In this document: positions 33,624 through 57,676 of the stretch, piece after piece | Layout: the number at the start of each line of letters is the position of its first letter | How positions within the stretch are numbered: position 1 is the first letter of the stretch | Assembly (NCBI RefSeq): GCF_900009145.1 | Contig: NZ_LN889802.1 | Span: 367,640 to 431,639, forward strand | DNA length: 64,000 bases | Origin: Planktothrix tepida PCC 9214 | GTDB taxonomy: Bacteria; Cyanobacteriota; Cyanobacteriia; Cyanobacteriales; Microcoleaceae | Direction of reading: 5' to 3' | Position numbers and translations under genes: made by a program | Notes under the pieces: model-generated | Told to the model about the DNA's origin: nothing | Database searches by the model: none | What the model saw: only the letters and a program-made list of their open reading frames with translations

Positions 33624-34022
33624 CTAGTGAGAGTTTTGGTTAGCAATATACTTTTTGATAGTTTCACTAGAAACAGAACCAGCCGTCCCACAATAATAGC
33701 TTCGACTCCACAAAGAAGGTAGTTTAAGTAAATGAGGAAATTCTTTTCTTAATATTCTTGATGATGCCCCTTTGATTCTGAACATAATTTGATGTGGAGC
33801 AATCAAAGGGTGACAACTAATAAATAAATGCACATGATCAGGCATTATCTCCAGAGCTAGGACATCACATTCTAGCTCTTTTGCTTTTTGGTAGATAATT
33901 TCCTCTAATCTTCTGCTCACTCCGTTAACCAACACCCTTTTCCTCCTTTTTGGGCAAAAGACAAAATGATAGTTGATCAGACTAACTGATGTGTTTTTTC
34001 TTCTATATTGATTTTCTGTCAT
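33624..34022 (-). CDS. tnpA: IS200/IS605 Y1 transposase TnpA
   Basis: 132 residues, full length for TnpA. This single-strand transposase carries the HUH motif in MPDHVHLFISCHP and the catalytic tyrosine in SSETIKKYIANQ. LWSRSYYCGTAGSVS is also conserved. It nicks single-stranded DNA at the lagging-strand template. It is divergent from tnpB, with 35 nt between start codons. Confidence 0.95.
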   Translation of the reverse strand: MTENQYRRKNTSVSLINYHFVFCPKRRKRVLVNGVSRRLEEIIYQKAKELECDVLALEIMPDHVHLFISCHPLIAPHQIMFRIKGASSRILRKEFPHLLKLPSLWSRSYYCGTAGSVSSETIKKYIANQNSH

Positions 34023-53259: not shown

Positions 53260-53458
53260 TCAATAATGAATATAATTATTTAAAAATTCGGCTACCGATT
53301 TTTTGTTATAACAATTAGCAAAAATAAACTTTTCCGAAACTTCCACAATTTCAGGATGATTTTCTCGCCAAATTTCATAAAATCTTTTAGCTTCCTCATC
53401 GGGTTGATGAGGTTTTTTATTCTGAGGAGAAGCTTTCTTAATTCTAGTTAACTTAGGT
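53260..53458 (-). pseudogene. Displaced C-terminal part of the REP-type transposase
   Basis: Downstream of the 53453-54031 gene another frame continues: LTRIKKASPQNKKPHQPDEE, RFYEIWRENHPEIVEVSEKF and FIFANCYNKKSVAEFLNNYI, ending at a TGA (complement of 53260-53262). It overlaps the transposase stop and reads one base out of frame with it. It is best explained as the original C-terminus lost by a single frameshift. Confidence 0.6.
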
Positions 53459-54031
53459 TAATTTACTCCCCCAATGAAAGCCTTTAGACTGCTTTTCTGG
53501 GGGCTTGTATTTATAACAGAAATTACGATATTTTTCCGCACACTCTTCTAAGTTTTCTCCCAAAGCCAAAAAAGCAGGATGCCAAGTAGTAATACCATCA
53601 TCACTTAATCTTTCATAAACACCATAATTACTAAAATCATAGAAAAAGCCCTTTTGCATTCCCGCCGATTGGGGGTTAGCATGGATATATCTAAGAGTAT
53701 TTAAAGCCCTTCTTTGATCACTACTAGGAAAACTTGTACTATGGTATCTTTTTTCCCAAAAATGTCCCGTACGTTTTAACATTCGATTAAAACACATAGC
53801 ACTATACCAGTTAAGATAGTGCATGATTTTCGGTACATCTTCTGTTTTTTGAGGTTCAATTAAATAGTGAATATGATTAGACATTATACATAAAGAATAA
53901 AGCTTAAAATCATATTTAATAATTGCTTTTTTGAGAATGTATAAGAAAACTTGACGACATTCTAAACGAGTCAAGCGAAACTCACGATTATTACAACGGG
54001 AGGTAATATGATAGGAATAGGGCATTTTCAA
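53453..54031 (-). CDS. REP-associated (Y1-type) transposase, probably frameshifted at its C-terminus
   Basis: 192 residues. The Y1 HUH transposase core is present: YHITSRCNNREFRL at the start, IMSNHIHYLI (the HUH motif), HFWEKRYHSTSF, and ALNTLRYIHANPQSAGM carrying the catalytic Tyr. RAYT proteins mobilise or domesticate REP palindromes without terminal repeats of their own. The C-terminal continuation is in another frame (53260-53458). No paired REP hairpins were obvious immediately around it. Confidence 0.8.
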   Translation of the reverse strand: MKMPYSYHITSRCNNREFRLTRLECRQVFLYILKKAIIKYDFKLYSLCIMSNHIHYLIEPQKTEDVPKIMHYLNWYSAMCFNRMLKRTGHFWEKRYHSTSFPSSDQRRALNTLRYIHANPQSAGMQKGFFYDFSNYGVYERLSDDGITTWHPAFLALGENLEECAEKYRNFCYKYKPPEKQSKGFHWGSKLT

Positions 54032-55277: not shown

Positions 55278-55423
55278 AGTTGGTATGTCTCCCCTAAATT
55301 TGCAATCTATCTTGATTTAGTCTGTTGGGTGGCTATACGAGCAATAACCCAACATTCTAAATGCCTTGTGTTTTTATCTAAGTTTGGCACGCTTAAAATA
55401 TCAAATCATGGTTCGGTGAGTCT

Positions 55424-55981
55424 TTATTCTCGACCTTGATAGCTGTCAGTCCGGGTATCAATCCGAATCCGTTCTCCTTTAGCAATAAATAAGGGAACCA
55501 TCACTTGAGCGCCTGTTTCCACAATAGCGGGTTTTGTACCCCCTGTTGCTGTGTCTCCTTTGACTCCGGGATCGGTTTCAATGACTTCTAAGGTGACAGA
55601 GTTGGGGAGTTCAACTTCCAGAACCTGCTCTCCCCAGCGAACAACGTTAACGGTCATTCCATCTTTAAGATATTTCACGCGATCGCCAATTTCACTTGCC
55701 TTTAAACGGGCTTCTTCATAGGTTTCCATATCCATAAAGACGTATTCTTCCGCGTCTTTATAAGTATGTTGCATTTCGCTTTTTTCCAGGGTCGCTTGAG
55801 GAACCGTCTCTCCCGCCCTAAAAGTGCGCTCTACCACATTCCCGTTTTGTGCGTTTTTGAGTTTTGTCCGCACAAAAGCAGAACCTTTTCCGGGCTTAAC
55901 GTGAAGAAATTCTACTACACGCCAGACTGACCCATCTAATACAATCGTGACACCTGTGCGAAAGTCGTTACTGGAAATCAT
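55424..55981 (-). CDS. efp: Translation elongation factor P
   Basis: 185 residues, three-domain beta-barrel protein. It relieves ribosome stalling at consecutive prolines. The first domain has [20 protein letters not shown] and the tip lysine at residue 32 (PGKGSA); the second and third contain [12 protein letters not shown] and the signature [20 protein letters not shown] followed by [19 protein letters not shown]. Full length. Divergent from the structured element and the peptidyl-prolyl isomerase gene. Confidence 0.97.
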
Positions 55982-56007
55982 AAGAAAAATTGTGGGACGT
56001 TTGGAAA

Positions 56008-56411
56008 CTGCGTCTCTTTAGGGCGCAGAGGAAAAACGACTCAGGGGAATAAATTCCCCGTGAAATATTGTTGCCACCTGGGAGTTGCTTTACTCGGTGT
56101 ACTTTTGTGATGTACTTTCAACGGGACAGTTACCGTCTCAAGTATTGCAACTCTCTAGGCACAACAGTTTGCTCAAAAGAGCCTCCCATTACTGGGGTAA
56201 TGTTCGCTTCGCCAATGTTATCTGAGCTTGTTAGGCCAACCACACTGTCTTACCCCTCGTAAAACTGTTTAATGATTGACGATAGAGCCACAAACTAGCG
56301 ACGCATTTGTGGGTATCTTGACTCAGATAACGTAGCCAGTTAAGGCTTAGGCTGGTCAGCTACCTAAAGGGGAGGCACGAAGACCCGTCTCTTTAGAGCG
56401 GGGTGCTGACG
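56008..56411 (+). ncRNA. Orphan HEARO/IscB-type omega-RNA-like structured element
   Basis: The 561-nt gap between efp and the isomerase gene holds nested stems. Outer hairpins share the loop TCTCTTTAGRG: CTGCG/CGCAG (56008-56028) and CCCG/CGGG (56384-56402). Inside are GGGGAA/TTCCCC (56044-56059); TGTTGCC/GGC-AC-AACA (56069-56075, 56158-56166) enclosing GAGTTGC/GCAACTC (56082-56088, 56147-56153); GCCTCCC/GGGAGGC (56181-56187, 56370-56376) enclosing a 12-bp stem (56215-56226, 56322-56333) and CCACAAA/TTTGTGG (56288-56294, 56306-56312). The order, size and segments such as TAGCGACGC resemble HEARO RNAs. No iscB gene follows. Identity is inferred; structure is directly visible. Confidence 0.6.
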
Positions 56412-56542
56412 CAAGCTAATACCTGGGCAGAATAATCGGCATCTTATTTTACCCTTGAACGGGGAACAGGGGATTAATTTTTTTAGGATGACTGGTGACG
56501 GAATAATGGCAAGATCAGTAAAGAGAACAAACGTTAAGATTT

Positions 56543-57676
56543 ATGTTGCATTTGCCCAATTCCATGAAAAACACCTATAAACATTGGTTGAGAACGAGTT
56601 TGGTGGCTGTACTGCTGTTTACCCTATCCCTAGGTCTGAGTGCGGCTTGGTGGGAGGGAGGGAGTCCACCAAAACGAGAAAGTATTTTACCTCAAGGAAA
56701 TGCGATCACCGATGGTTCGGCACTATTACGCTATGCTCTGCCCATTGATAACGAAGCGGTCAGAAAACTGCAATCGAGTTTAGAATCTATTTCGTCTCAA
56801 CTGCGAGGAAAGCGTTGGAATAATATCAATGGAGATATTACCCTTGCTTCCAGAGTTTTATCGACCCGGGAGGCGGAACTCTTGGCTAATATTCCAGAGG
56901 AACGCCAACCCCAAGCTCAAGCTTTAGTTGACCAATTAAAACAAGACATTGATACCCTACGCTCTGCTGTTGAAGTTAAAGATGCGACAATGGTGTTAGC
57001 AACCCGGGGAAAAATGTTAGATAGTGTTGGCAAATTAGAAGAATTAATGGTACAGGAATTTCCCTTTGAAGTTCCCGCAGAATATTCTAATTTACCTCAA
57101 CTCAAAGGTCGGGCTACCGTTGCAATTCAAACCAATAAAGGCAACTTAACCGTTGTCGTTGATGGTTATAGTGCTCCAATTACGGCTGGGAATTTTGTGG
57201 ATTTAGTTCAACGGGGATTTTATAATAACTTAAAATTCATCCGTTCAGAAGAATCCTATGCGTTACAGGTGGGAGATCCTGATGGAGAAGAAGACGGTTT
57301 TATTGATCCCAAAACGGGACAATATCGAGGGATTCCTTTAGAAATTTTGGTTCAGGGAGAAACAGAACCGATCTATAATATTACCTTTGAAGAATCTGGT
57401 CGTTATCAAGAGCATCCAGTTTTACCCTTTTCTGCTTTTGGAACCGTTGCATTAGCCCGTCCAGAAGCCATTTTAGATGGAGGATCTTCTCAAATTTTCT
57501 TCTTTCTTTTTGAGCCGGAATTAACACCTGCCGGACTCAATTTATTAGACGGTCGTTATGCTGTCTTTGGATATGTGACTGAAGGAAAAGACGTGTTAGA
57601 ACAACTCCGTAAAGGGGATGTGATTGAATCTGCAAAAGTGATTCAAGGGGGAGAAAATCTCGTTGAACCTGCTTAA
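56543..57676 (+). CDS. Cyclophilin-type peptidyl-prolyl isomerase (CYP38/TLP40-like)
   Basis: 377 residues. A signal segment (about 15-34) directs it out of the cytoplasm, probably to the thylakoid lumen. Residues about 60-180 form a helical bundle like the PsbQ-like part of plant CYP38. The cyclophilin domain (about 190-375) begins RATVAIQTNKGNLTVVVDGY and includes SAPITAGNFVDLVQRGFYN, GDPDGEEDGF, and FGTVALARPEAILDGGSSQI. The two-domain order matches TLP40/CYP38, which helps assemble photosystem II. A second ATG (56564) could be the true start. It is preceded by the omega-RNA-like element. Confidence 0.88.
   Translation: MLHLPNSMKNTYKHWLRTSLVAVLLFTLSLGLSAAWWEGGSPPKRESILPQGNAITDGSALLRYALPIDNEAVRKLQSSLESISSQLRGKRWNNINGDITLASRVLSTREAELLANIPEERQPQAQALVDQLKQDIDTLRSAVEVKDATMVLATRGKMLDSVGKLEELMVQEFPFEVPAEYSNLPQLKGRATVAIQTNKGNLTVVVDGYSAPITAGNFVDLVQRGFYNNLKFIRSEESYALQVGDPDGEEDGFIDPKTGQYRGIPLEILVQGETEPIYNITFEESGRYQEHPVLPFSAFGTVALARPEAILDGGSSQIFFFLFEPELTPAGLNLLDGRYAVFGYVTEGKDVLEQLRKGDVIESAKVIQGGENLVEPA

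Follow-up and report, generated by a model that had tools for sequence, protein, structure and literature searches.

Immediately before the ATG of efp in Planktothrix tepida PCC 9214 lies an inserted element of 429 bp, at 55982-56410 on the minus strand of the 64,000-nucleotide stretch analysed here (the window). It is a non-autonomous, MITE-like ISC element without iscB, and its structured part is a HEARO RNA, the omegaRNA of IscB nucleases, on the same strand. HEARO elements insert at ATGA or GTGA, and stand-alone omegaRNAs exist. The family as such is already known; the variant is docking on a start codon, which we observed for most distinct sites of orphan, ATGA-type copies in the genus. 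We hold with good confidence that the efp locus represents a non-autonomous ISC (IS200/IS605-type) insertion at the efp start, whose omegaRNA would use the captured efp promoter and which would depend on a Y1 transposase and an IscB supplied in trans.

The initial annotation had guessed that this interval holds a HEARO or omegaRNA and had named a cmscan search and a covariation analysis as checks; both agreed with the guess. Rfam RF02033 (HEARO/omegaRNA) matched from 56410 to 56197 on the minus strand over the full model (1-211 of 211) with 171.1 bits, twice the gathering score of 83, and a permissive search of 55500-56800 (E up to 1) returned nothing beyond this match. When the RNA and 14 downstream bases were aligned in 28 sequences, the relatives being 27 out of 49 genus copies within the length limit after those at least 95.5% alike had been dropped, 21 of the 36 predicted pairs were found to have changed on both sides. 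The minus-strand RNA of 55982-56410 folded with a z-score of -5.5, and the plus strand of the interval first marked as structured (56008-56411) with -3.0, none of 100 shuffles being as good in either case, so that the structure is real and above chance. The 12-bp stem described there (56215-56226 with 56322-56333) is present and corresponds to the central helix of the Rfam HEARO model, with 11 of 12 positions pairing on the RNA (minus) strand by hand count. The 7-bp stem (56181-56187 with 56370-56376) exists letter for letter but is not kept in the other copies compared and thus lies outside the conserved fold; we rejected it both as part of the fold and as a clamp on an iscB ribosome site. 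A plus-strand reading, in which the element would lead into the peptidyl-prolyl isomerase gene (ppi) that had been named as the next gene, was also rejected, because the Rfam match and the conserved structure are both on the minus strand; the RNA reads into efp instead.

Just outside the 3' end of the Rfam model, a terminal GNRA hairpin, CCCA-GTAA-TGGG (56185-56196, minus strand), follows a linker, and its stem is kept in relatives. Its alignment cells were paired in 92% of cases, as compared to 76% in shuffles, and 12 cells had changed on both sides; pairing and the covariation score exceeded all 500 shuffles, whereas the counts of changed pairs and pair types did not, the double changes in 2 of the 4 pairs being equalled by 172 of the 500. 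Among 89 genus copies the stem reads CCTA in 61 (loops GAAA, GCAA and GTAA), CTGA in 9, CCCA in 5, CGGA in 2 and CCC in 2 (one with a loop that is not GNRA), while one match was unrelated and none was found in the remaining 9. The element therefore resembles HEARO RNA (RF02033) in its full-length model with helices and pseudoknot partners, its terminal hairpin and the 5' position of the guide, with score, helix covariation and the hairpin after the linker all in agreement; it differs in being followed by a housekeeping gene, with no iscB downstream. We also noticed that eight copies (L134, L142, L152, L165, L170, L172, L174 and L175) have TGACCAG swapped as a block for TCGTACCCG, and that L170, L174 and L153 have TTATTGAAGC in place of TTGGCGAAGC. 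This is either a paired block change or an artefact.

The boundaries of the insertion were derived from empty sites. In a comparison of the efp-ppi region with 25 genomes, own included, the insertion was absent from eight of the nine other genus genomes, and no bases were duplicated; in the ninth (G004, 73% complete), the match covered no more than a part of efp. Flank matches ending at 55981 and starting at 56411 fell on adjacent bases in six relatives and 7 bases apart in two, and all eight empty sites (L038-L045) read as one continuous site in which the leader joins ATGATTTCC. Compared with the bounds first drawn, the true element thus extends 26 bases further at the low end and stops 1 base earlier at the high end. 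Directly after its right end stands ATGA (55978-55981, minus strand), which is the insertion motif, a candidate TAM, and contains the efp start codon, as judged from the empty site and from the RTGA that follows other copies. At the other side, a 16-nt guide from the old efp 5' leader is predicted at 56411-56426 (minus strand) from its position relative to the scaffold and from the relatives' empty sites; the 16 nt before ATGA are identical in four of the eight relatives, differ by one base in two and are shifted by an indel in two. A guide length of 16-17 nt is given in excerpts of the OgeuIscB structure paper (PMC9640706).

Hairpins stand at both ends, as had been reported, with TCTCTTTAG common to the two. 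The first (56384-56402), which has this stretch in its loop region, is also the first hairpin of the omegaRNA; the second (56008-56028) reads CTGCGTCT-CTTTA-GGGCGCAG, and homologous right ends occur in other copies. Between them, a variable middle (56065-56184, minus strand) is predicted to fold into a long imperfect hairpin and was reached by one other copy, G005:C154, among the matches listed. The absence of iscB claimed for the element was confirmed, since the 429 bp hold no iscB and no long open reading frame. Exact insertion at a fixed short motif without target duplication, together with the end hairpins, places the element with ISC and IS200/IS605 elements; it has no Y1 transposase of its own, and we therefore file it only as a non-autonomous derivative. 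MITEs and non-autonomous IS200-IS605 derivatives are short, lack a transposase and keep both ends. The efp element shares these properties and differs from them in keeping an intact-looking guide-RNA scaffold. The suggestion that it is a guide-RNA element mobilised in trans is supported by the empty sites, the fixed RTGA motif and the many iscB-less copies.

The efp gene itself is intact (55424-55981, minus strand; elongation factor P, 185 aa), with Pfam EFP_N matching from residue 3, followed by the OB and C-terminal domains. Simple scans of 55400-56800 gave no terminator-like site and no sigma-70-like promoter (0 against a shuffle mean of 1.6, fewer than in shuffles), and no clear Shine-Dalgarno sequence is kept at the efp junction. 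The efp promoter would be expected within the 132 bp that separate 56411 from the start of ppi.

We then considered where the proteins might come from. The own genome has seven HEARO RNAs, all above the cut-off, of which the one at efp scores best. A genome search for iscB, proposed in the initial annotation, did yield one intact gene (469.8 bits, the only IscB match above the family cut-off), but it adjoins a HEARO copy of another subfamily, whose omegaRNA is 60.8% identical to that of the efp element. No closely matching omegaRNA-iscB locus was found in this genome, and at an identity of 60.8% the resident IscB may or may not be compatible with the omegaRNA of the efp element. Because the element ends at the efp ATG and has no iscB within its 429 bp, let alone directly downstream of the RNA, we do not file it as a complete OMEGA locus, that is, IscB and omegaRNA in one locus. 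Closer relatives with iscB exist elsewhere in the genus: class A iscB-bearing copies (G001, G002, G004 and G005) have omegaRNAs 85-88% identical to that of the efp element, as compared to 60.5 to 73% for the other iscB-bearing copies. The similar autonomous element in G001 (L091, 1599 bp, 425-aa IscB) shares 87.6% omegaRNA identity, homologous ends and insertion at RTGA with the efp element; it differs in carrying iscB and in lying off a start codon by the docking rule given below (frame of 21 codons). Overall, a HEARO match was present in 9 of ten genus genomes, own included (above the cut-off in 8), and in 29 of the 40 genomes searched, own included (above the cut-off in 26); IscB matched above the cut-off in 7 of the ten, those in G008 being only partial.

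The own genome has 19 Y1 matches, none of which could be tied to the efp element. An abundant IS605-type element with a conserved unit of 1756 bp, whose Y1 match lies at 33636-33989 (minus strand) in the window and recurs as 16 same-score matches in the genome, is not supported as the mobiliser, as its ends differ in all 16 copies compared. The window also contains, at 53453-54031 (minus strand), a Y1-type transposase frame of 192 aa (Pfam Y1_Tnp, 69.7 bits), whose best NCBIfam match, REP-associated tyrosine transposase, is below the cut-off (58.9 against 80 bits).

Several further observations concern the distribution of the family. G008 has 41 HEARO matches, whereas its IscB matches all fall short of full length, the best one spanning model positions 66-314; this single draft genome thus holds a large set of orphans. 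A HEARO-like stretch is found in a Microcoleus phage (OR578707.1, 11265-11422; 70% identical over 37% of the element), and 13 plasmid records also match the element, those with a name being mostly cyanobacterial. The only intact iscB element of the genome (L164, G000:C46, HEARO at 304285-304509) ends exactly at the fabH start codon; the gene upstream, which we take to resemble plsX, makes it probable that L164 lies inside an operon. A 318-bp HEARO element (L096 and L098) is common to two species with a scaffold difference of 0.8%, and the gene downstream of it is presumably glnB-like.

To place the efp insertion among its relatives, we analysed 89 genus copies above the cut-off (88 others fetched and our own), leaving out 26 weaker matches. 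The copies begin with GTCA in 86 of the 89, and right ends were assigned in 76, 13 being dropped; L163 and L164 were later placed by hand and are uncounted. The original end rules required RTGA, and the test was therefore rerun without it, using motifs from ends already seen: the 67 end motifs sought in this way were then followed by ATGA in 58 cases, GTGA in 8 and CTGA in 1. A copy was called docked when it ended exactly where an open frame of 70 codons or more begins, provided that a stop codon precedes this start in frame and that the frame has no ATG further upstream. Orphans were recognised by testing for a motif of the IscB N-terminus, and some of them may therefore hold iscB fragments. 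Orphan copies with an ATGA end, the efp element included, represent 63 insertions at 57 distinct sites in the genus, and 36 of these sites (63%) lie exactly on a start codon. Under the same rule, start codons account for 22 of all 543 ATGA in the window and 22 of the 99 non-genic ones (22%); the excess over the latter is significant (binomial, 4e-11) against a null that consists of this single 64-kb window with ORF-based genes.

Docking was seen at 1 of 5 GTGA sites of genus orphans and, for iscB-bearing genus copies, in 2 of 3 with ATGA and 1 of 5 with GTGA. By class, it was found at 9 of 11 ATGA orphan sites in class C, 15 of 23 in class A and 10 of 21 in class B. Supply of a Shine-Dalgarno sequence was rejected as a general rule; visual inspection showed such a sequence in class C and in some of class A only. 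The docking rule misses the trigger factor gene, as L162 has an earlier in-frame ATG and L163 is unassigned. Four of the seven copies in the own genome are docked, at efp, tig, fabH (the iscB copy) and a 172-codon frame.

The hosts include efp, dnaN, leuB, folD, peptide deformylase, nuoH, acp and pfk. Of ten docked frames picked by hand for NCBIfam, nine matched a family (leuB, folD, peptide deformylase, NuoH, acyl carrier protein, phosphofructokinase, dnaN, tig and fabH, the last adjoining an iscB copy), although the best match for phosphofructokinase was below its own cut-off; the tenth, L129, had no NCBIfam match at 1e-20. Each of the nine best matches starts at one of the first four positions of its profile and at residue 1 to 17 of the protein, so that the docked starts are supported, if not proved to the codon. 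At dnaN, homology resumes no more than 3 bases from the junction in all nine other genus genomes, the upstream flank being listed a few bases away in three of them. The tig insertion occurs in both G000 and G002 and in part in G008, whereas seven of the nine other genus genomes have empty sites there, with both flanks a few bases apart.

Outside the genus, docking again followed the insertion motif. In G018, 39 of 44 HEARO copies were fetched and 35 gave a consistent end (three of the four dropped also have GTGA at the end motif); only 1 of 25 orphans at GTGA was docked, in contrast to the 36 of 57 at ATGA in the genus (Fisher, 4e-7). Similarly, the 10 copies fetched from G039 and G032 gave six ends, all GTGA and none docked. 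In G017, where orphan and iscB-bearing copies were taken together, 10 were fetched and 8 gave an ATGA end, several of these resting on few comparisons; 5 of the 8 were docked. These contrasts indicate that docking goes with ATGA specificity.

Part of this pattern might be expected if elements insert at random ATGA and purifying selection clears those inside genes. An insertion at a start codon spares the protein, and 22% of the non-genic ATGA in the window already lie on starts. However, at 63% the observed fraction is above this expectation, as measured against one 64-kb window, and some further factor, either selection for transcription or a preferred target, would have to be added. We put survivorship as the full account at slightly under an even chance; neutral insertion and survival at harmless sites explain part of the docking pattern, and not obviously all of it.

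It is also possible, though we would bet against it, that only the insertion is real, and that the element at efp is a dead relic, inserted once and now immobile, with an inert omegaRNA. The lack of a closely matching omegaRNA-iscB locus in the own genome would fit, as would excerpts of a Limnospira RNA-seq study, which treated group I/II introns and HEARO RNAs as post-splicing, post-mobility remnants and left them aside, while stating that HEARO location should be analysed (PMC8400943). The scaffold, in contrast, is the highest-scoring of seven, and the efp site is empty in eight relatives, which makes the insertion look recent. Conservation gives a mixed picture. Where two species share an insertion, scaffold and right end are conserved to about the same degree, which gives no sign of scaffold-specific selection. 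In three of eight such pairs, the scaffold shows clearly fewer differences than the third codon positions of the gene that follows (5.1 versus 23.5%, 3.2 versus 10.5% and 3.4 versus 26.6%); among the pairs, the upstream flank has diverged strongly in one and the downstream frame is out of line in one. Co-opted regulation, with the structured leader controlling efp or the guide repressing gene starts, is improbable: the element does lie between the promoter region and the start codon, its guide is the old leader next to the ATG, and some insertions (6 sites) are common to two species, but the efp insertion is absent from the eight relatives in which the site was read, the own genome has no guide+RTGA match with up to 2 mismatches besides its own site (a backward control gave 2 chance matches), and the many unrelated genes hit resemble transposition rather than a regulon.

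Our preferred reading, an insertion with promoter capture and helpers in trans, suggests the following course. An IscB element kept both ends and its omegaRNA and lost iscB, and a Y1 transposase acting in trans may then have moved it to an ATGA site. At efp this ATGA is the start codon, which puts the element between the efp leader or promoter and the ATG, and a housekeeping gene should thereby acquire the omegaRNA as its 5' leader. An RNA transcribed from the efp promoter would then comprise the old efp leader as guide, the omegaRNA scaffold, the right end and the efp coding region. As most ATGA-type relatives in the genus are on start codons, host promoters probably make the guide RNA. HEARO 5' UTRs are naturally expressed in another setting, according to excerpts of one report (PMC9755519). 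By analogy, an IscB made elsewhere may load this RNA and cut chromosome copies with an empty site, where the guide sequence is followed by ATGA, and repair from an occupied copy would keep or spread the element in a polyploid cell.

Known systems resemble parts of this scheme. In excerpts of its structure paper (PMC9640706), the OgeuIscB omegaRNA is arranged in the same way, with a guide segment, a central stem, a nexus pseudoknot and a linker that leads to terminal hairpins; its TAM, NNRR, differs from the RTGA that flanks the efp element. For TnpB, one paper proposes that its RNA targets the empty donor joint (PMC8612924), and another describes TnpB as a gene drive in multicopy plasmids (PMC11870625). 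The likeness of this reRNA and its peel-paste-copy scheme to our model lies in a guide taken from flanking DNA, a target that equals the empty donor site and a proposed role in protecting or spreading the element; the nuclease is another one, the guide is at the opposite end of the RNA, and the efp element has no nuclease in cis. If the analogy holds, IscB with the RNA of the efp element should cut chromosomes with an empty efp site.

More tentatively, and with less than an even chance of being right, we propose for the family that ATGA-specific orphan omegaRNA elements use housekeeping start codons as landing pads, with a captured promoter, a guide from the leader and an IscB in trans that converts empty alleles in polyploid cells. 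Under this proposal a gene that is both needed and actively transcribed would make an insertion expressed and safe, and some right ends may supply a new ribosome-binding site (class C, GGAGGAAGAAAG joined to ATG). No paper on start-codon insertion of such elements was among the literature matches listed, which is weak evidence, the key family papers lying outside the search. For orphan guide RNAs of IscB, the Cas9 ancestor, docking offers a testable answer as to how they are expressed and retained: a docked orphan RNA would borrow a housekeeping promoter, and its guide would be fixed by the place of landing. Genes such as efp, dnaN and the one for acyl carrier protein can thus carry structured leaders of ~300-500 nt in some strains and not in their relatives.
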